64,000 nt of DNA from Bifidobacterium breve. Lineage in GTDB: Bacteria; Actinomycetota; Thermoleophilia; Solirubrobacterales; Solirubrobacteraceae. The translations under genes were made by a program, and so were the position numbers. Every line of letters starts with the position of its first letter. The stretch's first letter is position 1. The notes under the pieces were generated by a model, which was given only the letters and a program-made list of their open reading frames with translations, was not told the DNA's origin and ran no database searches. This document shows, one piece after another, positions 45,765 through 58,677 of this stretch. The stretch spans positions 1 through 64,000 of the forward strand of contig CAMCUD010000008.1 in NCBI GenBank assembly GCA_945878865.1. Reading direction: 5' to 3'.

Positions 45765-46739
45765 TCAGGCCGTGGGCAGCGTGCAGACGCCCTTGCGGCC
45801 GGTGAACCCGTCGGCGAGGGTGCCGGCGTTGAAGCGCAGCATGTCGAGATACGTCGCCCCGGTGGAGCCCTTCGGGCCGAGGGAGTCGCTCCACAGCTGC
45901 GGGCCGACCGTCGCCCCGGAGCGATCGGCGATCGCCCGCTCGAGCTTGGGGTTGACCGTGTTCTCGGCGTAGATCGTCTTCACGCCCTCGGCCTGGATCG
46001 TCTTGACGAGGTCGGTGACCTCGCCCGCGGAGGCCTGCGACTGCGTCGACAGGCTCGGGATCACGGTACCGACGAGCTCGATGTCGTAGCGGTCGGCGAA
46101 GTAGCCGAACGCGTCGTGGTTGGTGACGAGCTTGCGCTGGGAGGCGGGGATGTCGTCCATGCACGCAGCGATCGCCGTGTCCATCGCGGTGAGCTGCTCC
46201 GTGTAGGCCTTCGCGTTGGCGTCGTAGGTCGCGGCGCCTCCCGGGTCGGCCTTGACGAGCGCCGCGCGGGTCGCCTCGACGGCGGCAATCGCGTTCTGCG
46301 GGTTCTGCCACCAGTGCGGATCGATGCCTTCCCCATCCGCGTGCTCTTCCTCGTGGTCATCCCCGCCCTTGCGGGTCGTGACGTCGTCGATGAGGTCGAG
46401 CTGTGTCGCGTCCGAGCCGGCGCTCGAGACCACGTCGGCCAGCCATGCGTCGACCTCGCCGCCGGAGCGCACGATGAGGTCGGCGTCGGCGACGGCCTGC
46501 GCGTCGCTCGGCCGCGGCTCGTAGTCGTGCGGGTCGGCGTTGACCGGCAGGATCGTCGTGACCTGCGCCCGGTCGCCGGCGACGTTGCGGACGAGGTCGC
46601 CCGCGATCGTCGTGGTTGCCACGACCTTCGGACCGTCGCCCGACGCGGTGGTCGAGGAGGAGGAGCCATCACCACCGCATGCGGCGAGGAGGACGGCAGC
46701 GGAAACCAGAACGACGGGCAGCATCGGGCGAACGGACAT
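45765..46739 (-). CDS. Zinc ABC transporter substrate-binding lipoprotein (ZnuA-like)
   Basis: A 324-residue cluster A-I solute-binding protein. Lipobox LLAAC gives a lipid-anchored Cys near residue 21. Metal-site His residues are in VNADPHDYEPRPSD, GIDPHWWQNPQN and VTNHDAFGYF, with a C-terminal acidic residue expected as fourth ligand. A His/Asp/Glu-rich loop (GGDDHEEEHADGEG) is typical of zinc- rather than manganese-binding members. The permease and ATPase genes are not adjacent. A Zur-like palindrome lies 17-29 nt upstream of the start. Confidence 0.9.
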   Translation of the reverse strand: MSVRPMLPVVLVSAAVLLAACGGDGSSSSTTASGDGPKVVATTTIAGDLVRNVAGDRAQVTTILPVNADPHDYEPRPSDAQAVADADLIVRSGGEVDAWLADVVSSAGSDATQLDLIDDVTTRKGGDDHEEEHADGEGIDPHWWQNPQNAIAAVEATRAALVKADPGGAATYDANAKAYTEQLTAMDTAIAACMDDIPASQRKLVTNHDAFGYFADRYDIELVGTVIPSLSTQSQASAGEVTDLVKTIQAEGVKTIYAENTVNPKLERAIADRSGATVGPQLWSDSLGPKGSTGATYLDMLRFNAGTLADGFTGRKGVCTLPTA

Positions 46740-46755
46740 GCGCCCCAGGCTAACA

Positions 46756-46768
46756 GAGAACGATTCTC
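46756..46768. promoter_or_regulatory. Putative Zur box 1
   Basis: Perfect inverted repeat GAGAA-CGA-TTCTC directly upstream of the ZnuA-like gene. Aligned as a 15-mer it matches box 2 at 11 of 15 positions (shared GAGA and GATTCTC). It resembles the TGA...TCA palindromes of actinobacterial Zur/Fur operators. Confidence 0.65.
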
Positions 46769-46775
46769 GTTATCT

Positions 46776-46952
46776 CTACGGAGTCGGGCCGACCATCCCC
46801 GCGGCCAGCACTCCGGCGGCAAGCAGCGTGCCGGTGACCGCCCGCTTGCGCGCCGGCGTCATGAGATGCCCGAACCGCACGACAAGCCACGCCCGGATCC
46901 CGGTGGCCGAGGCGCCCGCCGCCATGGCGCCCGCCATGCACTGCATGCACAT
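46776..46952 (-). CDS. Small Cys-rich membrane protein
   Basis: A 58-residue protein starting MCMQCMAGAM (CxxC within the first five residues), then AAGASATGIRAWLVVRFGH and a hydrophobic C-terminal segment (AVTGTLLAAGVLAAGMVG). I recall similar 55-70 residue proteins with an N-terminal MCMxC beside COG0523 genes in other actinobacteria, but have no function for them. It is divergent from the COG0523 gene across Zur box 2 and followed by Zur box 1 and znuA. The Cys/Met-rich start suggests metal handling (inference). Confidence 0.7.
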   Translation of the reverse strand: MCMQCMAGAMAAGASATGIRAWLVVRFGHLMTPARKRAVTGTLLAAGVLAAGMVGPTP

Positions 46953-46977
46953 GACGGCATCGTACCGTGACCTATAC

Positions 46978-46992
46978 TGAGACTGATTCTCA
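46978..46992. promoter_or_regulatory. Putative Zur box 2 over a -10 element
   Basis: Palindrome TGAGA-CTGAT-TCTCA, overlapping by one base the -10-like TATACT (46973-46978) that reads toward the COG0523 gene at 47011. Binding here would block that promoter and probably the divergent small-protein gene. Confidence 0.7.
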
Positions 46993-47010
46993 TTTACGTC
47001 TGGAGGCCGC

Positions 47011-48237
<1,227 letters not shown>

Positions 48238-48722: not shown

Positions 48723-49109
48723 ATGTCGACCCGCGTCCGTCCCCTCCATCTCCTCGCGGCCCTGGGCTGCGCCATCGCCCTCGCCGCCTCCGGCTGCGGT
48801 GGCGACGACAGCGACAGCGGCACGTCGGGTGGCTCCAGCTCCGTGGCGACGTCCTCCACCGGCGGAGGCACCGCCGCGGTCGACGGCAAGGCCGTCTTCG
48901 AGTCCAACTGCGCGAGCTGCCACACCCTGAAGGCCGCCGACGCATCGGGCAGCTTCGGCCCCAACCTCGACGACCTGAAGCCCGACGCCGCGACGGTCCA
49001 GAAGCAGGTCGAGAACGGCGGCGGCGGCATGCCGGCGTTCAAGGGCCAGCTCAGCAACGAGGAGATCGCAGCGGTCGCGGCGTACGTCGCGAAGAGCGCC
49101 GGCAGCTAG
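48723..49109 (+). CDS. c-type cytochrome lipoprotein
   Basis: A 128-residue protein with lipobox LAASGC (lipid Cys near residue 24), a Gly/Ser/Thr-rich tether and a mono-haem domain: haem-binding NCASCHTL and distal Met in GGMPAFKG. It resembles the cytochrome c6/cbb3-III class, used as a membrane-tethered electron shuttle on the outer face of the membrane. It directly precedes the copper-associated region and shares a terminator with it. Confidence 0.88.
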   Translation: MSTRVRPLHLLAALGCAIALAASGCGGDDSDSGTSGGSSSVATSSTGGGTAAVDGKAVFESNCASCHTLKAADASGSFGPNLDDLKPDAATVQKQVENGGGGMPAFKGQLSNEEIAAVAAYVAKSAGS

Positions 49110-49238: not shown

Positions 49239-49889
49239 TCAGGCCCGTGCGCGCCGGCGGCCGAGCACGAGCGCGGCGATGCCGGTGACCAGACCGAGCC
49301 CGCCGACGATCAGGGCGGCGACGGCCAGGCCGTCGCCGGAGCCCCCGTCGTCTCCGGCGTCGTCCGGAGCGGAGGCCGCGGCCGCGGACGAGTCGTCACC
49401 CTCGCCGCCGGCGTTCTGCCGGGGCGCCGACGCGCTGATCTGCGTCACCGACGCCGGTTCCTCGCTGCCCGGCCCGCCGATCCAGCGGACCTTCTGCCCG
49501 TCGCTGTAGGTCTGGATCGCCTTCCAGCTGATCGGCCCCGCCTGATCGGGCGTCGTGGCGAGGAACTGCGTGACGAGCACCTCCGAGGGCTTAAGGTTCC
49601 CGCTCCACACGATCGAGCGCACCGACTGGTTGGGGTTCTTCGTCAGGGTGCGCGTCCATCCGGGCAGGGGTTCATAGGAGAACGGGATCACGCCCTTCGG
49701 GATCGCGAGCTCGACATTCGTGGTCGCGAGGTCGCGTTCGTTGGGCACGAGCACCGTCCACAAGACGGGGTCCCCCGGCGCGGCCTCCGCGGGTCGGACC
49801 TGGATGTGCGCGGCCGCCGGCGCGGCGCCCACCAGCAGCGCCGCACCAGCGAGGAGCGCGGCGCGGGTCAGCCGACGCGGAACGTCCAC
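49239..49889 (-). CDS. YcnI-like (DUF1775) copper-associated protein
   Basis: A 216-residue exported protein: signal peptide cleaved at PAAA|HIQV so that His becomes residue 1, a DUF1775 domain (WTVLVPNERDL, VIPFSYEPLPGW, IVWSGNLKP), an acidic linker and a C-terminal membrane helix plus RRRARA anchor. In Bacillus YcnI the N-terminal His belongs to a monohistidine copper brace. Last gene of the operon; GTG 49889 is preceded by AGGAGG and overlaps copC by 22 nt. Confidence 0.87.
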   Translation of the reverse strand: MDVPRRLTRAALLAGAALLVGAAPAAAHIQVRPAEAAPGDPVLWTVLVPNERDLATTNVELAIPKGVIPFSYEPLPGWTRTLTKNPNQSVRSIVWSGNLKPSEVLVTQFLATTPDQAGPISWKAIQTYSDGQKVRWIGGPGSEEPASVTQISASAPRQNAGGEGDDSSAAAASAPDDAGDDGGSGDGLAVAALIVGGLGLVTGIAALVLGRRRARA

Positions 49890-50260
49890 GACCCCTCCTG
49901 CTTGTGGCCGTCGGCGGCCGTGACGTTCCACGTCGCCCGGTACCTGCCCTTGGCGAGCGGGCGCTTCAACGTCGCGTAGAGCTTCTTGACGTTCGTCGTG
50001 CTCACGCGCGACGTCCGGGAGACCACGCCCTTCGGCCCGCGGACGACGAGCTTGCCGCTCTTGATCTGCTCACCGAACGTGATGGTCGCCTTCGAGGTGT
50101 TCGTCCCGACCTTCGATCCGTTGGCGGGGTACTCGGACACCTCTTCGGTGTGGGCGAACGCGACGGCGCCACCGCCCGCTGCGAGCGTGGCGCCGGCGAG
50201 CGCGACGGCCGCGATCCGGCGCCGATGGGACTGGATGGACATGCGGGTTCCCTTCGTCAT
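49868..50260 (-). CDS. CopC-domain periplasmic copper-binding protein
   Basis: A 130-residue single-domain CopC: signal peptide ending VAFA|HTEE, so His is the predicted N-terminus, and the C-terminal Cu(II)-site pair in TAADGHKQEGSW (Asp and His). It likely binds Cu(II) outside the membrane for transfer to CopD. ATG 50260 overlaps the CopC-CopD stop (ATGA); ATG 50242 is an alternative with GAAGGG upstream. Confidence 0.88.
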   Translation of the reverse strand: MTKGTRMSIQSHRRRIAAVALAGATLAAGGGAVAFAHTEEVSEYPANGSKVGTNTSKATITFGEQIKSGKLVVRGPKGVVSRTSRVSTTNVKKLYATLKRPLAKGRYRATWNVTAADGHKQEGSWTFRVG

Positions 50261-51960
50261 CGCACTGACACCTTCCAGCGCGTGTCGTACTGGTCGAATT
50301 CGGAGACGCGGACCGAGAACGCGAGCTCCCAGTCCCCGCCCGGGGTCAGAGGCAGCGCCTCGATTACGTAGTGGCCGGGACCGGCGCGGCGCGGCTTGGC
50401 CGGCAGCGGGCCGATCTGCTCGGACGGCAGCGCAGCGGTCACGCGCAGCTCCTTCGTGCCCGTGAACGGCGTGCCGTCCCGGCGCAGGAGGTAGAGATGC
50501 AGCTCGTTCACGCCGGCTCGGGCGGGGTCGAGGGTCGCCTGGAGCTCGAGCGGACCGACCGTGCGCTCGAGTGACGCAGGCCCACCGGCCGCGGACGCCG
50601 GCGGGCTGATCCCGACGAGGATCCCCGTGACGGCCAGCGCACCAACGACGAGCGCCACCTCGGCCCGCAGCGTCGCGCGCAGGACGCGGCCGTCGTCGCC
50701 GGGCGGCGCGCCCTCCTCGGCAAGGCGGCGCAGCCGGGGCATCGTGCGCCGCTGGTTCACCGCGCCCAGCCCGACGAGCACGAGGAGGAGGACGATCTTC
50801 GCGAGCACGAGCCGCCCCCACGAGCTGTCCCACAGGTCCGAGACCGCGGTGAGATGCTCGATCGACGCCACGACGCCGGTGAGCACGAGCACGGCGACGC
50901 TGACCATCGCCAGCGGGGAGAACCGGCCCAGAACGGCGGCGAGCAGCCGCGTGCGATCCCGGGCCGCCAGCGCGCGGGTCGCCGCGGGGACCGCCGCGAG
51001 TAGGAGGACGAGGCCGCCGACCCAGGCGCTCATCGCCGCCACGTGCAGGGCATCGAGGGCGACGTTCAGCCACACCGGATCCGTGGCCCGCGCGTGCCCG
51101 GCCAGCGCCGGGGTGATGCAGAGCGCGAGGACGCTGAGGCCGCCGAGCACGAGCTCGACGGGGCGGCGGCCCGGCGGCTTCGCCACGGCCGCGAGAACGC
51201 CGAGCACCGTGAACGCGATGAGCCGCACCGCCCAGGCGTGGCCGAAGTTCGTCTTGAGCAGCTCGCGGAAGGTGTCGGCGTCGACGGCCTGCCAGAGCGA
51301 CGCCCCGGAGGCCAGCGCCGCCTGCAGCCCGAGGCCGAGCCCGGTCGCCCCCGCCCCGACGGCCGCCGCGCCGACGAGGATCGGCCGGACCCGGTGCTGC
51401 ATGGCCGCGGCCGCCGCCGCGCCCGCGCCGGTCGCGCGCAGCGCCGGCCCCCACACGATGAGCAGGAAGATCAGCCCACCGGCCAGGATCGCCGTCGCGA
51501 GGTACGCCACACCGCGGACGACCTTCATCGCCGTCTTCGACACCGGCCCCGCCTCGGCGGTGATGAGCTTCGTGACGTCGGCGGGCGCCGCGCCCGGCCG
51601 GCCGACGTTGAACACCACCCCACCGCTGACGGGATGGCTGTCGGCCGAGATGACGCGGTAGGTCGCGACGTACGTGCCGTCGGCGATCCCGTCCTTCAGC
51701 CCGACGCGCAAGGCGTCAGGCTGCCCGGGCGGATGACCGGAGCTGCCATCGTCAACGCGCTTGCCGTCGGCGCCGACGACGCGCAGCGCGCCGAACGCCG
51801 CCTCAACCGGCTCGCTGAAGCGCAGGACGACCTCGTCGGGCTGCTCGCGCACCGTCACACCGCGCGCCGGCTCGCTGGAGACGAGCGTCGCGTGGGCGGA
51901 CGCCACGGCCGGCAGGCCGAGGAGGAGCAGGCACGCCAGCGTGAGGGCGCGTCTCACCAC
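50257..51960 (-). CDS. CopC-CopD fusion copper protein with YtkA-like C-terminus
   Basis: A 567-residue fusion: signal peptide ending VASA|HATL, a CopC domain (about 23-125, with ISADSHPVSG as Cu-site Asp/His), an eight-helix CopD domain (about 145-455) and a C-terminal extracellular beta domain (about 470-567, LELQATLDPARAGVNELHLYL) like YtkA. CopD is proposed to import copper. GTG 51960 overlaps the stop of the upstream gene (GTGGTGA), and its stop overlaps copC. Confidence 0.92.
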   Translation of the reverse strand: MVRRALTLACLLLLGLPAVASAHATLVSSEPARGVTVREQPDEVVLRFSEPVEAAFGALRVVGADGKRVDDGSSGHPPGQPDALRVGLKDGIADGTYVATYRVISADSHPVSGGVVFNVGRPGAAPADVTKLITAEAGPVSKTAMKVVRGVAYLATAILAGGLIFLLIVWGPALRATGAGAAAAAAMQHRVRPILVGAAAVGAGATGLGLGLQAALASGASLWQAVDADTFRELLKTNFGHAWAVRLIAFTVLGVLAAVAKPPGRRPVELVLGGLSVLALCITPALAGHARATDPVWLNVALDALHVAAMSAWVGGLVLLLAAVPAATRALAARDRTRLLAAVLGRFSPLAMVSVAVLVLTGVVASIEHLTAVSDLWDSSWGRLVLAKIVLLLVLVGLGAVNQRRTMPRLRRLAEEGAPPGDDGRVLRATLRAEVALVVGALAVTGILVGISPPASAAGGPASLERTVGPLELQATLDPARAGVNELHLYLLRRDGTPFTGTKELRVTAALPSEQIGPLPAKPRRAGPGHYVIEALPLTPGGDWELAFSVRVSEFDQYDTRWKVSVR

Positions 51961-52628
51961 GCCTCCGCCTTCGGGCCGCTGTCACCGTCATCGTCGGCCG
52001 CGCTGCGGCGACGGCGGACGAAGAGCACGAGTCCGATCCCGGCGAGCACGACCAGCGCGAACGCGACGATCGCGCCGACGGGCATGCCGCCCCCGGTCCC
52101 GCGCCACCACAGGGTGCCCGCGATCGCCGCCGGCTTGCCGTCGACGGTCATCGGGACCTTCCAGTCGAAGACCTTCTGCCGCTGATCGGTCTTGCCCCGC
52201 ACCTGCGGCGGCTCACCGTCGGCCATCCAGTGGATCCGGTGGTCGTGGAACTGGAAGCGCTCGTTGCCATCCGCCGCCTTCCAGACCGGCTGGGCCTTGG
52301 CGTCGGCGATCTTCGGGACATCGACGTCGCCACGCGGGTCGTCGTTGAGGTACGTCGCCGGCGAGCGCTCGTTGATCTGGACGTGGCCATCGGGCAGCAG
52401 GCGGGCGTACGGCTCGCCGTCGTACCCCTCGATGACGACGACCTTGCCGGTGTCGTTGATGACCTGCAGGCGATCGTCGCCGTTGAGGACCTGGACCTTC
52501 AGGCCAGGGACGTCGACGCTCGTGACGACGGATTCGTAGTCGGGGTTGCCCTTGTGCGCACCGGCGGGCGCGGCGGCGAGGGCGGCGAAGCAGGCCGTCG
52601 CGCACGCGACGGCGGTGATGCGGGCCAT
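51954..52628 (-). CDS. Exported N-terminal-His membrane-anchored protein, copper operon
   Basis: A 224-residue protein opening the operon. Signal peptide ends AAPAGA|HKGN, giving an N-terminal His; the extracellular domain (about 24-180) includes VLNGDDRLQVINDTGKVVV, RSPATYLNDDPRGD and a His-rich FQFHDHRIHWMADG; a C-terminal helix VGAIVAFALVVLAGIGLVLF and basic tail anchor it. I do not recognise the family. Position ahead of CopCD-CopC-YcnI and the His-first mature end suggest a copper-binding partner (inference). Confidence 0.78.
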   Translation of the reverse strand: MARITAVACATACFAALAAAPAGAHKGNPDYESVVTSVDVPGLKVQVLNGDDRLQVINDTGKVVVIEGYDGEPYARLLPDGHVQINERSPATYLNDDPRGDVDVPKIADAKAQPVWKAADGNERFQFHDHRIHWMADGEPPQVRGKTDQRQKVFDWKVPMTVDGKPAAIAGTLWWRGTGGGMPVGAIVAFALVVLAGIGLVLFVRRRRSAADDDGDSGPKAEAW

Positions 52629-52685
52629 GTGCCCGTCCTCCTCGGGATCGAGCTCGCGCCCGAGGTGGACCTCGCGACGGAGCGG

Positions 52686-53015
52686 CTAGCGGATGACGGG
52701 GGCCGCCGGGGGCGGCCGGACGTCGAGTGCGAACGCGAGGAGGGCGCCCGCGCGAGGCGGCAGCGCGACACCGCGGCGCGCGGGGAGATGGCGCGCAGCG
52801 CGCCTCCGGGAAACGGCCCGGGTGCCGATGAACCGAGCGATGCGCTCGATCGCCTCCTCGCCCATGTACCGCCCCGTCAGCAGGGGCAGTGCGAGCAGCA
52901 CGACGGGCGCAGCCAGCAGCAGATCCATGGGCGCGCCGAGGACGATCGGCAGCACGCAGGAGACGCCCACGAAGGTGAGCGCCAGCAGCAGGTGGCGGAG
53001 GTCACGAGGCCGCAT
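52686..53015 (-). CDS. Small two-helix membrane protein, paralogue A
   Basis: A 109-residue protein with two hydrophobic helices (LLLALTFVGVSCVLPIVLG and LLLAAPVVLLALPLL), then YMGEEAIERIARFI, an Arg-rich stretch and the C-terminal motif LLAFALDVRPPPA. It is the same length and layout as its divergent neighbour at 53082. Function unknown. Confidence 0.7.
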   Translation of the reverse strand: MRPRDLRHLLLALTFVGVSCVLPIVLGAPMDLLLAAPVVLLALPLLTGRYMGEEAIERIARFIGTRAVSRRRAARHLPARRGVALPPRAGALLAFALDVRPPPAAPVIR

Positions 53016-53081
53016 GGACCCGCGATGGTAGCTGGCAGGCGGTTGGCGTCGCCCCGGATTCCCGGCTACCCTGGCGGGCCG

Positions 53082-53411
53082 ATGTCCGCGGTCCGCCGAC
53101 CCATCGTCCTGCGCTGCGCCGTGTTCGCGGCCGTGCTCCTCGCGCTTGCCGCGGGGTTCGTCACGGCCCCGTCCGTCGCCTTGCTGCTCGCGCCGGCGGC
53201 CGCGCTCCTGCTGCTCCTCGCCCACGGGATCTTCCCCGGCGAGCAGCTCATCGAACGGCTCCGCGCCCACCGCGCGCAGCACCGTCCCCGGCGCCGTCTG
53301 CTGCCCGTCGCGCGCCCGGTCGCTCCGGCGACCATCCGCCGCACCGGGCGCCACATCGCGTTCGCGCTCGCCGTGCGCCCGCCGCCCGCGCGGCTCGCCC
53401 TCACCCGCTAG
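53082..53411 (+). CDS. Small two-helix membrane protein, paralogue B
   Basis: A 109-residue protein with hydrophobic segments VFAAVLLALAAGFVTAPSV and LLLAPAAALLLLLAHGI, then FPGEQLIERLRAHR, an Arg-rich stretch and C-terminal IAFALAVRPPPA. The GE..IER and AFAL.VRPPPA motifs are shared with the head-to-head gene at 52686, so the two are paralogues. No function recognised. Confidence 0.7.
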   Translation: MSAVRRPIVLRCAVFAAVLLALAAGFVTAPSVALLLAPAAALLLLLAHGIFPGEQLIERLRAHRAQHRPRRRLLPVARPVAPATIRRTGRHIAFALAVRPPPARLALTR

Positions 53412-53477
53412 CGCACGCCCGAACGACGCCTTCTCGCGGTCGGTGGGGCGTGCCCCACCCACCATCCGAAAGGGCGC

Positions 53478-54677
53478 ATGCGCGCATTCCCGCATGCGAT
53501 GTCGGCGGCGCTCTGCGCCGTGGGCGTCGCGAGCATCGCGTCCCCCGCCGTGGCCGCTCCGGCCGCGTGCGGAGGCACGCCACAGATCACGGACCCGACC
53601 GGGGACGGCCATCACGCGAACACCGACGTGACGGCCGCGTGGTTCTCCGAGCAGTCGGGCCTGCAGGCCGTCATCCGCGTCAAGATCGGCGACTTCACGC
53701 CGGCCCACGACGATTCGGACGCGGCCGGCTACGCGGTGATCTACGAGGTCGACGGGGTCCGCCGGTACGTCCGGGCCGAGGCCCCGAGGACCGGCGCGAT
53801 GCGTTTCGACACCGGCACGTGGTCGCCGGCCGGCGGGTTCGCCAGCACGGCGACGACCACGGGCTCGACCGAGGCCGGGCCGAACGGCGTGGTCGTGATC
53901 ACCGTGCCCGGCGTGAGCGCCGGGCAGCGGATCTCACGGCCGTTCGTCCTGACCTACGACGGTGAGGACGCCCCGGGCGTCGTGCACTGGGTCGATCGGG
54001 CTCCGGGTGGCACCGCGCCGGACAGCACTGAGTACGGCGCCGACCTCGTCGTCGGCGCGTGCGGACTCGGCGGCACCGCTCCGGGCACGGGTGGAGGGAC
54101 AGGCGGGCAGGGCGGATCGAGCGGGACGGGCGGATCCGCCGGCTCCGGCAGCGGCACGTCCGCGGCCGGGCTGACGGGCGTCGCGCTCAAGGCGCCGGCC
54201 GCCGTCACCGGTGGAGGGACCGTCCGGGTCACCGGCGCGGTCCGCCCCGCGCAGGCCGGCGTCGCCGTAACCCTCCGGTCCCGCGCCAAGAAGCTCACGA
54301 CCCGCTCCACCACGACGGGGGCCGACGGCGCGTTCGCGCTGAAGGTCCCGATCGGCGAGACGACCACGCTGCAGGCGAGCGCCGGTGGCCTGTCGTCGCA
54401 GTCGCTCACGGTGACCGTGAAGTCCACGGTCCGCGTGCGCGTCCGCCGTGTCCGTGCGGGCGGCGTCCTCGTCACCGGCCAGGTGCGCCCCGCGCTGCCC
54501 GGCCGCGTTCTGTGGCTGCGCGACGGATCCGCGTCGCCGGCCGCCACCACCTCGGCGAAGGGCGGCACGTTCCGCCTTCGCCTCCGACATCCGCGAAGGG
54601 GCCGCTACCAGGCCGTCTTCGTGCCGTCCGGCGCACGCGCCGAACGGTCCACATCGAACACAGGAGTCATCCGTTGA
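53478..54677 (+). CDS. Secreted multidomain protein of unknown function
   Basis: A 399-residue exported protein: signal peptide (cleavage near AVAA|PAAC), an N-terminal beta domain (about 35-200, ITDPTGDGHHANTDVTAAWF), a Gly/Ser-rich linker and two carboxypeptidase-like/Ig-like repeats (VRVTGAVRPAQAGVAVTLRS and VLVTGQVRPALPGRVLWLRD). There is no anchor. The stop overlaps the next gene's TTG start (TTGA), so they are co-translated. It resembles secreted surface-binding proteins; no enzyme motif is seen. Confidence 0.72.
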   Translation: MRAFPHAMSAALCAVGVASIASPAVAAPAACGGTPQITDPTGDGHHANTDVTAAWFSEQSGLQAVIRVKIGDFTPAHDDSDAAGYAVIYEVDGVRRYVRAEAPRTGAMRFDTGTWSPAGGFASTATTTGSTEAGPNGVVVITVPGVSAGQRISRPFVLTYDGEDAPGVVHWVDRAPGGTAPDSTEYGADLVVGACGLGGTAPGTGGGTGGQGGSSGTGGSAGSGSGTSAAGLTGVALKAPAAVTGGGTVRVTGAVRPAQAGVAVTLRSRAKKLTTRSTTTGADGAFALKVPIGETTTLQASAGGLSSQSLTVTVKSTVRVRVRRVRAGGVLVTGQVRPALPGRVLWLRDGSASPAATTSAKGGTFRLRLRHPRRGRYQAVFVPSGARAERSTSNTGVIR

Positions 54678-55891
54678 CCACCTCCCGCATCGCTCGTGCC
54701 GCCGCCCTCACCGCGGCCGCGGCAGCCACCGCCCTCGCGCTCCCCGCGGCGGCCGGCGCCCACGGCAGCGTGTACGAGACGACCGCCCGGATCGTGCCGA
54801 GCCCGGCGCCGTCGCCGATCACCGCCGGAGACCTCACCACCCAGAAGCGCTACGTCTTCACCAACCACGGCTACACCGCCGTGTTCCGGGAGACGAACGG
54901 GCTGACCAGCGGCGGCGTGATCAACTTCGCCGTCCTCCCGAGCGCGTACCGCAACCAGGCCAGCAAGACGGCCAACTTCAAGGAGGCGTGGTACGTCGAG
55001 GGCGGCACCGGCATCCAGGCGCACGCCACGTGCCAGGGCGTCGCGGCGCTGTCGTCCTACGAGAACATCGGCGCGTGGCAGGGCGCTGACCCGTTCTACG
55101 CGTACATCCCGTTCCAGAAGAACGCGGCCGGATTCGAAGACGACCCATCGTCGTGGATCGCGCTGGTGAAGACCCTCACCGGCGTCGACCTCGCGACGGT
55201 CGCCAGCCCGGCAACCGCGTGCGCCGGCCTCGGCGGCACCTACACGCCCGCCGACGACTTCAACAACCCGCCGACGACCGCAAATCCCCTCGCGCCGTGG
55301 ACGACGCTCAGCTCGTCGACCATCGCAGAGCAGGTCGAGGCCGCGACCGACCCGCTCAACGACAAGATCGCTGAGCAGGACACCGAGATCTCGGGCCTCG
55401 AGGGTGACGTCACCGGCCTGAAGGCGAAGGTCGCCGAGCTCGAGGCCGCCAAGGCCGCGTCGGACAAGGCGCTGGCCGAGGCGCAGGCGTCGGCGAAGGC
55501 CCTCGCCGACAAGGCGGCTGCCGCCGAGGCCGCGAGCTCCGCCGCATCGGCGCAGTTGAAGGCTGCGTCCATCCCGCTCGGCCTCGCCGTGAGCGCTGAG
55601 TCGTTCTCCGTCGCGCAGCTGAAGGCCGGCGTCAGCGTCAAGCTCACCGGCCCGGCCGGCGAGAAGGCGCACGCCCGCCTGCTCGTCTCGACGGCGACCC
55701 GCCGCGCGCTCGGGCTGCCGCTGCGCACGCTGGCGTCGGCCACCACGACGCTCGGCGCGGACGGCACGACGACGGTCACGCTGAAGAGCTCGGCGAAGGC
55801 GCTGGCGAAGCTCACCGCGTCGACGAAGGTCACCGTCGACGTGTCGGCGGGCGGGCGCACCATCAGCACGACCGCGACGCTGACGAAGTGA
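54674..55891 (+). CDS. Exported N-terminal-His protein with coiled coil
   Basis: A 405-residue protein: signal peptide ending PAAAGA|HGSV, a globular domain (about 30-215, with YVFTNHGYTAVFRETNG, two Cys in ATCQGV and TACAGLGG), a long Ala/Lys/Glu-rich coiled coil (about 225-300) and a C-terminal beta domain (about 305-405). TTG 54674 has AGGAG 7 bases before. The mature N-terminal His and the overlapping downstream CopC-like gene link it to copper. Family not recognised. Confidence 0.75.
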   Translation: MTTSRIARAAALTAAAAATALALPAAAGAHGSVYETTARIVPSPAPSPITAGDLTTQKRYVFTNHGYTAVFRETNGLTSGGVINFAVLPSAYRNQASKTANFKEAWYVEGGTGIQAHATCQGVAALSSYENIGAWQGADPFYAYIPFQKNAAGFEDDPSSWIALVKTLTGVDLATVASPATACAGLGGTYTPADDFNNPPTTANPLAPWTTLSSSTIAEQVEAATDPLNDKIAEQDTEISGLEGDVTGLKAKVAELEAAKAASDKALAEAQASAKALADKAAAAEAASSAASAQLKAASIPLGLAVSAESFSVAQLKAGVSVKLTGPAGEKAHARLLVSTATRRALGLPLRTLASATTTLGADGTTTVTLKSSAKALAKLTASTKVTVDVSAGGRTISTTATLTK

Positions 55892-56256
55892 TGCGGCGCG
55901 CGGTCATCACCGCACTCGCGTGCGCGGTCGCCGTCTCGACGGCGGCCGCGACCGCGCTGGCGCACAGCGAGGTCGTCTCGACGAGCCCGAAGGCGGGTGG
56001 CAGCGCGTCGACCAAGATCACCAAGGTCACGGTCACCTTCTCCGGCCCGATGCGCAAGGGGACGATCCGCGTCACCGGCGCGGGGGGCAAGGTCGTCTCG
56101 CAGGGCAGCGGCGGGAGTGACCCGCGCAACGTCAACCGCCTCACGGTCGCGCTGAAGCGCGGCCTGAAGGCGGGCCGCTACACGGCGGCGTGGACCGCCG
56201 TCGCCGCCGACGGGCACAAGCAGCAGGGGAGCTTCCGCTTCCGCCTGAGGTCGTAG
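55891..56256 (+). CDS. CopC-domain protein, second copy
   Basis: A 121-residue CopC protein: signal peptide ending ATALA|HSEV, then the CopC beta fold (VTVTFSGPMRKGTIRVTG) and AVAADGHKQQGSF with the Asp/His copper pair. ATG 55891 overlaps the previous stop (TGATG); GTG 55888 is a possible alternative. It is more similar to the 49868 copy at the Cu site than to the fusion's CopC domain. Confidence 0.87.
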   Translation: MRRAVITALACAVAVSTAAATALAHSEVVSTSPKAGGSASTKITKVTVTFSGPMRKGTIRVTGAGGKVVSQGSGGSDPRNVNRLTVALKRGLKAGRYTAAWTAVAADGHKQQGSFRFRLRS

Positions 56257-57736: not shown

Positions 57737-58243
57737 TCAGGGCGCGGGGGGCGGCACGGGCAGCCTCGCCCGGAACGGCCACAGGGCGACGATCGAGCGG
57801 ACGCGCAGCGTCGCGAGGTCGTCGCCCTTCGTCACCGCGAACCCGATGGGGACGATCTGCACCCCGTCGCGGACCCGCCGCGGCGCGAGTCGGAACGCCT
57901 CACGCACCGTGGCGCCACTCGTCGTCCTCGCGCTGAAGCGCGCCCACTGCAGCGGGAACGGGTCGTCCCCGCGGTCCTCGATCTGCAGGTCGGCGATCAC
58001 CGCGTCGCGCCCGGCCGGCAGGGAGACCGGCAGCTGCCCGGGCGGCGGATGCTGCGCGACGACCGTCAGCTGCGTGTCGACCTCGCGGGCCGCACCCGTC
58101 GCGTCGGTGTAGCGCTCGGCCACCGTGGTGCCCGCCGCGGCGGTCGTGGTGGTCGCGGGGGCGGTCCCGCCGTCATCGCTCCCGCCGCAGCCGGCCGTGC
58201 CGGCGGCCAGCACCGCCGCGATGACCGCCGCGGCCGCCCTCAC
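57737..58243 (-). CDS. Lipoprotein with Ig-like (DUF4352-type) domain
   Basis: A 168-residue lipoprotein: lipobox AGTAGC near residue 19, Thr-rich tether, then a beta-rich domain (QLTVVAQHPPPGQLPVSL ... IADLQIEDRGDDPFPLQW) resembling telokin-like/DUF4352 modules. GTG 58243 overlaps the stop of the Fur-family gene (GTGA), so it is translated with that regulator. Function unknown; metal homeostasis is suggested only by this coupling. Confidence 0.7.
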   Translation of the reverse strand: MRAAAAVIAAVLAAGTAGCGGSDDGGTAPATTTTAAAGTTVAERYTDATGAAREVDTQLTVVAQHPPPGQLPVSLPAGRDAVIADLQIEDRGDDPFPLQWARFSARTTSGATVREAFRLAPRRVRDGVQIVPIGFAVTKGDDLATLRVRSIVALWPFRARLPVPPPAP

Positions 58244-58677
58244 GAACGCCTGGTGGCCCGCAGGATGACGTCGTGGCCGGTGATGTCGAGGCCGAGCCGG
58301 TCGCCCAGCCCGTGGATCGCCCGCTCGAGCTCCTCGTCGCTGAACGGCTCGACGGTGCCGTCCTCGAAGACCACGTGGTGATGGTGCTCGCCCGACGGGT
58401 CGACCGGCTCGTAGCGCGCCGTGCCCTCCCCCGAGTCGAACCGGCGGACGAGGCCGAACTCGTGCAGCGTCTCCAGCGCGCGGTAGACGGTGGCGGTGCT
58501 CGCCGACGGGCCGTCGGAGGCCCGCAGTTGGTCGACGATCTCCTGCGCGCTGACCACGCACTCCTGGCCGGCGAGCAGCTCCACGACGGCCGAGCGCCCC
58601 GCGCTCGCGCGCAGGCCGGCGCCGCGCAGGACCTCCTCGGTGTGTTCGAGCCAGCGTCGGCGGGCGGTCGCGTTCAT
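58240..58677 (-). CDS. Fur-family transcriptional regulator
   Basis: A 145-residue Fur protein: winged helix (about 1-85, with STATVYRALETLHEFGLVRR) and a dimerisation domain with GEHHHHVVFEDG (metal-binding His cluster). The C-terminal CxxC pairs that hold structural zinc in typical Fur/Zur are absent. It could be Zur for the palindromes at 46756 and 46978 about 11.5 kb away, or another Fur class. First gene of a two-gene unit with the lipoprotein. Confidence 0.88.
   Translation of the reverse strand: MNATARRRWLEHTEEVLRGAGLRASAGRSAVVELLAGQECVVSAQEIVDQLRASDGPSASTATVYRALETLHEFGLVRRFDSGEGTARYEPVDPSGEHHHHVVFEDGTVEPFSDEELERAIHGLGDRLGLDITGHDVILRATRRS

Follow-up and report, generated by a model that had tools for sequence, protein, structure and literature searches.

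Two divergent operons around known copper genes

The window (the whole 64,000-nucleotide stretch analysed) holds two divergent operons, one running on the minus strand from 53015 to 49239 and the other on the plus strand from 53082 to 56256 (Table 1; proteins are named by the lowest coordinate of their gene, and His1 denotes a histidine at the predicted mature N-terminus). The minus operon begins with a small membrane protein (53015-52686), followed by the 51954 protein, a CopC-CopD fusion, a free CopC and a YcnI-like protein. The plus operon encodes a small membrane protein, the exported 53478 protein, the 54674 protein and a second free CopC. Coupled translation is suggested at four junctions, since the genes there overlap by 4-7 nt (51954-51960, 50257-50260, 54674-54677 and 55888-55891).

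Table 1. Genes and features of the copper cluster; a slash marks the predicted signal-peptidase cut
Feature	Positions	Strand	N-terminus and motifs	Database match
YcnI-like DUF1775 protein, C-terminal TM; start codon uncertain, coordinates give the ORF maximum	49239-49931	-	AAA/HIQV; first mature residue, His, at 49808	PF07987, E 3e-18; aligned to YcnI structures
Free CopC	49868-50260	-	AFA/HTEE; Asp-x-His ligands	PF04234, E 5e-17
CopC-CopD fusion with C-terminal extracytoplasmic domain (YtkA-like position), YcnJ-like	50257-51960	-	ASA/HATL	PF04234; PF05425, E 3e-22
51954 protein, founding member of an undescribed family, with signal peptide, predicted beta-sandwich domain of ~155 aa and one TM helix	51954-52628	-	AGA/HKGN, His1 codon 52554-52556; FHDHRIHWM	
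Small hydrophobic, basic membrane protein, first gene of the minus operon	52686-53015	-		
Shared divergent promoter region, imperfect 23-nt inverted repeat	53013-53084	.		
Paralogous small membrane protein, first gene of the plus operon	53082-53411	+		
Exported protein without His1, carboxypeptidase-regulatory-like domain	53478-54677	+		PF13620, just above cut-off
54674 protein, exported, of a narrow family; TTG start, coiled-coil-like middle	54674-55891	+	AGA/HGSV, His1 codon 54761-54763; second conserved His at mature 36	
Second free CopC	55888-56256	+	ALA/HSEV; Asp-x-His ligands	PF04234, E 1.5e-20

The initial annotation had singled out six exported proteins here in which a signal-peptidase motif, A-x-A, is followed directly by histidine, and all six are indeed present where it placed them, motifs included. 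Among them are one DUF1775/YcnI protein and three CopC domains, one of these within the CopC-CopD-YtkA fusion, all with their Cu(II) ligands. In the YcnI-like protein, His1, Glu24 and a conserved Trp fall in register with the Bacillus subtilis YcnI structures, where the ligands are His27, Glu50 and Trp137 in precursor numbering (PMC8424229). The three proteins that match CopC retain His1 and Asp-x-His.

The two small membrane proteins are paralogues of 109 aa that belong to no known family; other Solirubrobacterales have relatives of them close to the same operons. The inverted repeat between them carries mirrored GGTAGC/GCTACC, is kept in two relatives (L046 and L047) and resembles a mirrored pair of -10 elements, each near a start codon. 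Genes on either side of the copper cluster (45765-48237 and 58240-58677) encode a ZnuA-like zinc-binding protein, a CobW-type GTPase and a FUR-family regulator, which suggests a wider metal-homeostasis neighbourhood. A small exported c-type cytochrome (PF13442) is encoded at 48723-49109 on the plus strand, convergent with the YcnI gene.

An exported family linked to CopD

No family had been recognized for the 51954 and 54674 proteins in the initial annotation, and database searches agree: the former, whose anchor gave sub-threshold hits, has no relative in Pfam, NCBIfam or the PDB, and the family of the latter has none in Pfam or the PDB. Among 73 members of the 51954 family there was no meaningful Pfam match at E 0.01, and none to CopC (PF04234). 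Searches of 149 genomes from its class and 296 from its phylum found the family in 28 and 41, respectively. A scan of a genome collection gave 80 loci, which by their record titles are all from Actinomycetota bar a few doubtful or unassigned records. The viral contigs scanned held no relative, and a literature text search with the motif string found no relevant paper. Judged by these searches, the 51954 protein is the founder of an undescribed family of Actinomycetota.

The protein consists of a signal peptide, a domain of ~155 aa and one TM helix followed by RRRR. In other clades a tail of 4-5 TM helices replaces the single helix; this tail has no Pfam match and no relation to CopD detectable with hhalign. 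Such long members are found at loci L083-L125 (Acidimicrobiia, Micromonosporaceae and others) and L020-L033. AlphaFold2 gave a confident, mostly beta model of the 51954 domain (mean pLDDT 94.3, pTM 0.88, first ten residues 89), and the domain is confidently predicted to be a beta-sandwich. In searches with Foldseek and VIA-align no solved structure stood out from generic beta-sandwich matches (best Z 5.3); CopC, YcnI and Ang-1 were not among the structure matches listed, and viral structures gave no match. Profile matches of a family alignment (A1) to designed trefoils and to eL39 were short and were taken as chance.

Three elements are near-invariant across the family, G-Y-x-G-E-P-Y, N-x-x-S-P and a Trp at mature position 92, together with W-H-D-H-R-x-H-W-M at mature positions 103-111, which reads F-H-D-H-R-I-H-W-M in the window. 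One of the two patterns used to collect the 80 loci contained HDHRxH, so the conservation of this motif in that set is inflated. Some divergent members recovered by an unbiased search have FDK, FDR or HDHQ in its place.

Gene neighbourhoods tie the family to copper. Profiles built from the CopC, CopD and YcnI of the window found matches near 54 of the 80 loci, many of which lie on truncated contigs, and near 27 of the 36 flanked by 4 kb or more on each side; the same profiles had no match in 33 control stretches, each of 12 kb, from the window's own genome. In Solirubrobacterales the 51954-type gene usually stands directly upstream of CopC-CopD. Of the 41 genomes that have the family 38 also have CopD, compared with 107 of the 255 that lack it (Fisher p 3e-10, kinship ignored). 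In Patulibacter minatonensis (one gene, seen at L014 and L101; L101:5947-7998) the 51954 domain is joined directly to the N-terminus of CopD, without an intervening CopC. This fusion is the only one found, in a genome that has three CopC domains elsewhere.

Loci without CopCD nearby have neighbours that include plastocyanin-like cupredoxins and SCO1, and a copy on an Iamia plasmid, annotated as hypothetical, lies among genes for CopD, a cupredoxin, DUF1775, cytochrome c and SCO. In one group of Acidimicrobiia one gene near the 51954-type gene encodes a thioredoxin-like protein and another a polytopic membrane protein. Loci L094, L095, L100, L110, L111 and L113 hold members with Asp or Glu in place of His1, near thioredoxin-like and polytopic membrane genes and not near CopCD. 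The ties to copper operons that had been drawn in this one genome thus extend, by gene neighbourhood, across Actinomycetota for the 51954 family and across Solirubrobacterales for the 54674 family, and a role of the 51954 family in copper handling is likely.

It could be argued that the 51954 domain binds no metal and is instead a structural or docking subunit that keeps CopC-CopD, or an assembly factor for copper oxidases, in position, with WHDHRxHWM as an element of the fold or of an interface. The motif has as many invariant Trp and Arg as His residues (Trp, Arg and Gly are equally invariant), divergent members swap its histidines (F-D-K/R), and the fusion to CopD would suit a docking domain equally well. 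We nevertheless regard this as fairly unlikely, given that structure alone seldom preserves three His and one Asp in a span of six residues and that cupredoxins, SCO1, CopC and YcnI are encoded nearby.

The N-terminal histidine in the two families

Of 103 aligned relatives of the 51954 protein, 78 have His1 directly after the cleavage motif and 25 lack it, 16 of the latter with Asp at that place; 24 of these 25 keep H-D-H...H. On a family tree built without the His1 column the trait changes seven times, and five of the changes are forced by well-supported branches. Copper genes often remain: CopC or CopD is in reach of 11 of 22 loci without His1, compared with 40 of 56 that have it (80-locus set). 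At the same loci His1 is retained by 59 of 60 CopC domains and by 39 of 40 YcnI proteins, the YcnI exception being truncated, and retention in the 51954 family differs from both (Fisher p 4e-5 against CopC and 2e-4 against YcnI). A CopC at L047 (8441-8719) has lost its N-terminal His, with DTQAAR after AGA, which is unusual among the 60.

The initial annotation had suggested that the 51954 and 54674 proteins may be copper-brace proteins, and on this point the two families part ways. A brace would be expected to show an N-terminal His conserved throughout the family, and a CopC would add Asp-x-His to it; the 51954 family has His1 in 78 of 103 members and HDHRxH instead of Asp-x-His. Since His1 is lost while HDHRxH and often the copper neighbours stay, and since CopC and YcnI keep theirs, His1 is not the invariant core of this family. 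Going by the alignment, the family prefers His1 without requiring it, and HDHRxH is its conserved core.

The 54674 family fits the suggestion better. It is narrow, with matches in 21 of the 121 genomes from its own family, 5 of the 149 from its class and 2 of the 296 from its phylum at the limit of the search. In relatives a 53478-type gene recurs upstream of the 54674-type gene, and the two form a recurring cassette with CopC. His1 is present in 16 of the 20 copies compared, and a second His (TN-H-GY) in 13 of these 16 and in none of the four without His1, so that an N-terminal and a second histidine are conserved together, as in a brace. The second His is found in every one of the 12 copies that have CopC in reach, as is His1 in all of them with an intact N-terminus (one is cut at a contig end), compared with both histidines in two of nine copies without CopC nearby (p 3e-4, kinship ignored). 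His88 of HATC is invariant with and without CopC and so is not a marker. A pair of histidines that tracks CopC in this way fits the pattern expected of a two-His brace, as far as sequences can indicate one. AlphaFold2 gave only a low-confidence model of the 54674 domain (pLDDT 41), from an alignment of four sequences. The same genome holds a paralogue (G000:C1:269632-270600; L041, L160) that has neither His1 nor the second His, and no CopC or 53478-type gene nearby.

Were both families true histidine-brace copper proteins, His1 would be an essential ligand in each. The A-x-A/His sites in the window and in most relatives, the copper-operon context of both families and the dependence of the second His on His1 in the 54674 family would all be accounted for. 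We consider this unlikely for the pair, as the 51954 tree requires at least five changes at His1 while the motif otherwise persists, unlike CopC and YcnI. What we propose for the 51954 family, from its alignment, is that HDHRxH may form the core metal site and that His1 may act as an optional ligand.

A model for the cluster and its relation to known systems

We favour, with moderate confidence, a model where the cluster is a copper acquisition system of the ycn/cop type, in which the 51954 protein would supply CopD with an extra copper-handling domain through HDHRxH, and the 54674 protein with its CopC would be a clade-specific addition. CopC, YcnI and the CopC domain fused to CopD would each hold Cu(II) outside the membrane at an N-terminal His site, and CopD would move copper inward. 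Exchange of Cu(II) between YcnI and the CopC domain of YcnJ has been published for B. subtilis (PMC12362106). The 51954 protein may be a further membrane-anchored extracytoplasmic domain that presents copper to CopD or docks on it; it probably binds metal via H-D-H-R-x-H, with His1 (amine and imidazole) as an optional extra ligand, and could take copper from the CopC domain or CopD, or hand it on to either. The 54674 protein is probably a secreted two-His brace, using His1 and the His of TN-His-GY, that works with the neighbouring CopC.

Gene linkage does not separate import from resistance. CopC and CopD were named from resistance operons, and a cluster with this many CopC-type sites would suit sequestration of copper outside the cell. 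That the cluster serves resistance and not import nonetheless seems improbable to us: its gene set is like B. subtilis ycn, the loss of which impairs growth under copper limitation (PMC12362106). Nor was a multicopper oxidase or a copper export ATPase recognized among the genes examined.

Signal peptides were called by a home-made rule in a strict and a lenient version, with 400 kb of the same genome as background. The strict rule found A-x-A/H in none of 45 signal-peptide-like ORFs of the background; the lenient rule found it as an option in 4 of 81 there and in 5 of 15 inside the window, where it missed one of the six. An N-terminal His is expected of the CopC and YcnI families, so only the 51954 and 54674 proteins are informative among the six, and the chance statistic, with four of the six drawn from such families, speaks mainly for the locus and not for the two undescribed proteins. 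Conservation of His1 in relatives (16 of 20 in the 54674 family, three quarters or so in the other) is the better test. Coincidence in Ala-rich signal peptides with the true cut elsewhere, for which the 4 of 81 background ORFs might speak, is very improbable, as most relatives have the same residue after the motif at a fixed alignment position.

Beyond this locus, the known external partners of CopD are CopC and DUF1775, and the 51954 family would be a third candidate for how external Cu(II) reaches CopD across Actinomycetota. More tentatively, it is tempting to see in the family a new extracytoplasmic copper-binding class, centred on WHDHRxHWM and able to replace CopC as the copper-presenting domain of CopD, in which a His brace is optional and has been repeatedly lost; judged on the sequences, this is possible but falls somewhat short of probable. 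Members that have naturally and repeatedly lost His1 while keeping the motif allow a direct test of what an N-terminal His contributes to copper handover and, if the proposal is true, amount to a natural test of the His brace. Both exported families and the small membrane proteins are without a Pfam name.

Like CopC (PF04234), the 51954 domain is predicted to be an extracytoplasmic beta-sandwich and usually starts with His; it also accompanies the N-terminal domain of CopD and in one case takes its place. It differs in having no detectable sequence relation to CopC, a length of ~155 aa, HDHRxH in one segment and often no His1. A signal-strapping study that searched for His1 metalloproteins described Ang-1 and Ang-2 domains ("anglerases") on HupE-type permeases; these are fused to HupE/UreJ-2 (PF13795), with 100% His1 reported, and Ang-2 is restricted to Actinomycetota (PMC12537917). 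They share with the 51954 family a signal peptide, an N-terminal His and an extracytoplasmic domain tied to a membrane transporter, but the partner here is CopD, the tails tested match no Pfam family and loss of His1 is frequent. A HupE/UreJ-2 fusion was not encountered, the window's 51954 protein having one TM helix and nine long-form relatives showing no match to PF13795, and Ang-1 (PDB 9GCE) was not among the profile or structure matches listed for the family. The 54674 family resembles the two-His braces of LPMO and CopC type in a His1 and a second conserved His that come and go together; unlike them it has no sequence relation to any solved structure, and it is a brace candidate by sequence.

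The closest likeness to the cluster as a whole is B. subtilis ycnKJI. Both have a CopC-CopD fusion with a C-terminal extracytoplasmic domain (YcnJ being CopC-CopD-YtkA), in an operon with a DUF1775 protein that carries His/Glu/Trp ligands. No repressor of the YcnK type was recognized in the window's cluster, which adds to the ycn set two free CopC proteins, two undescribed exported families and two small membrane proteins.
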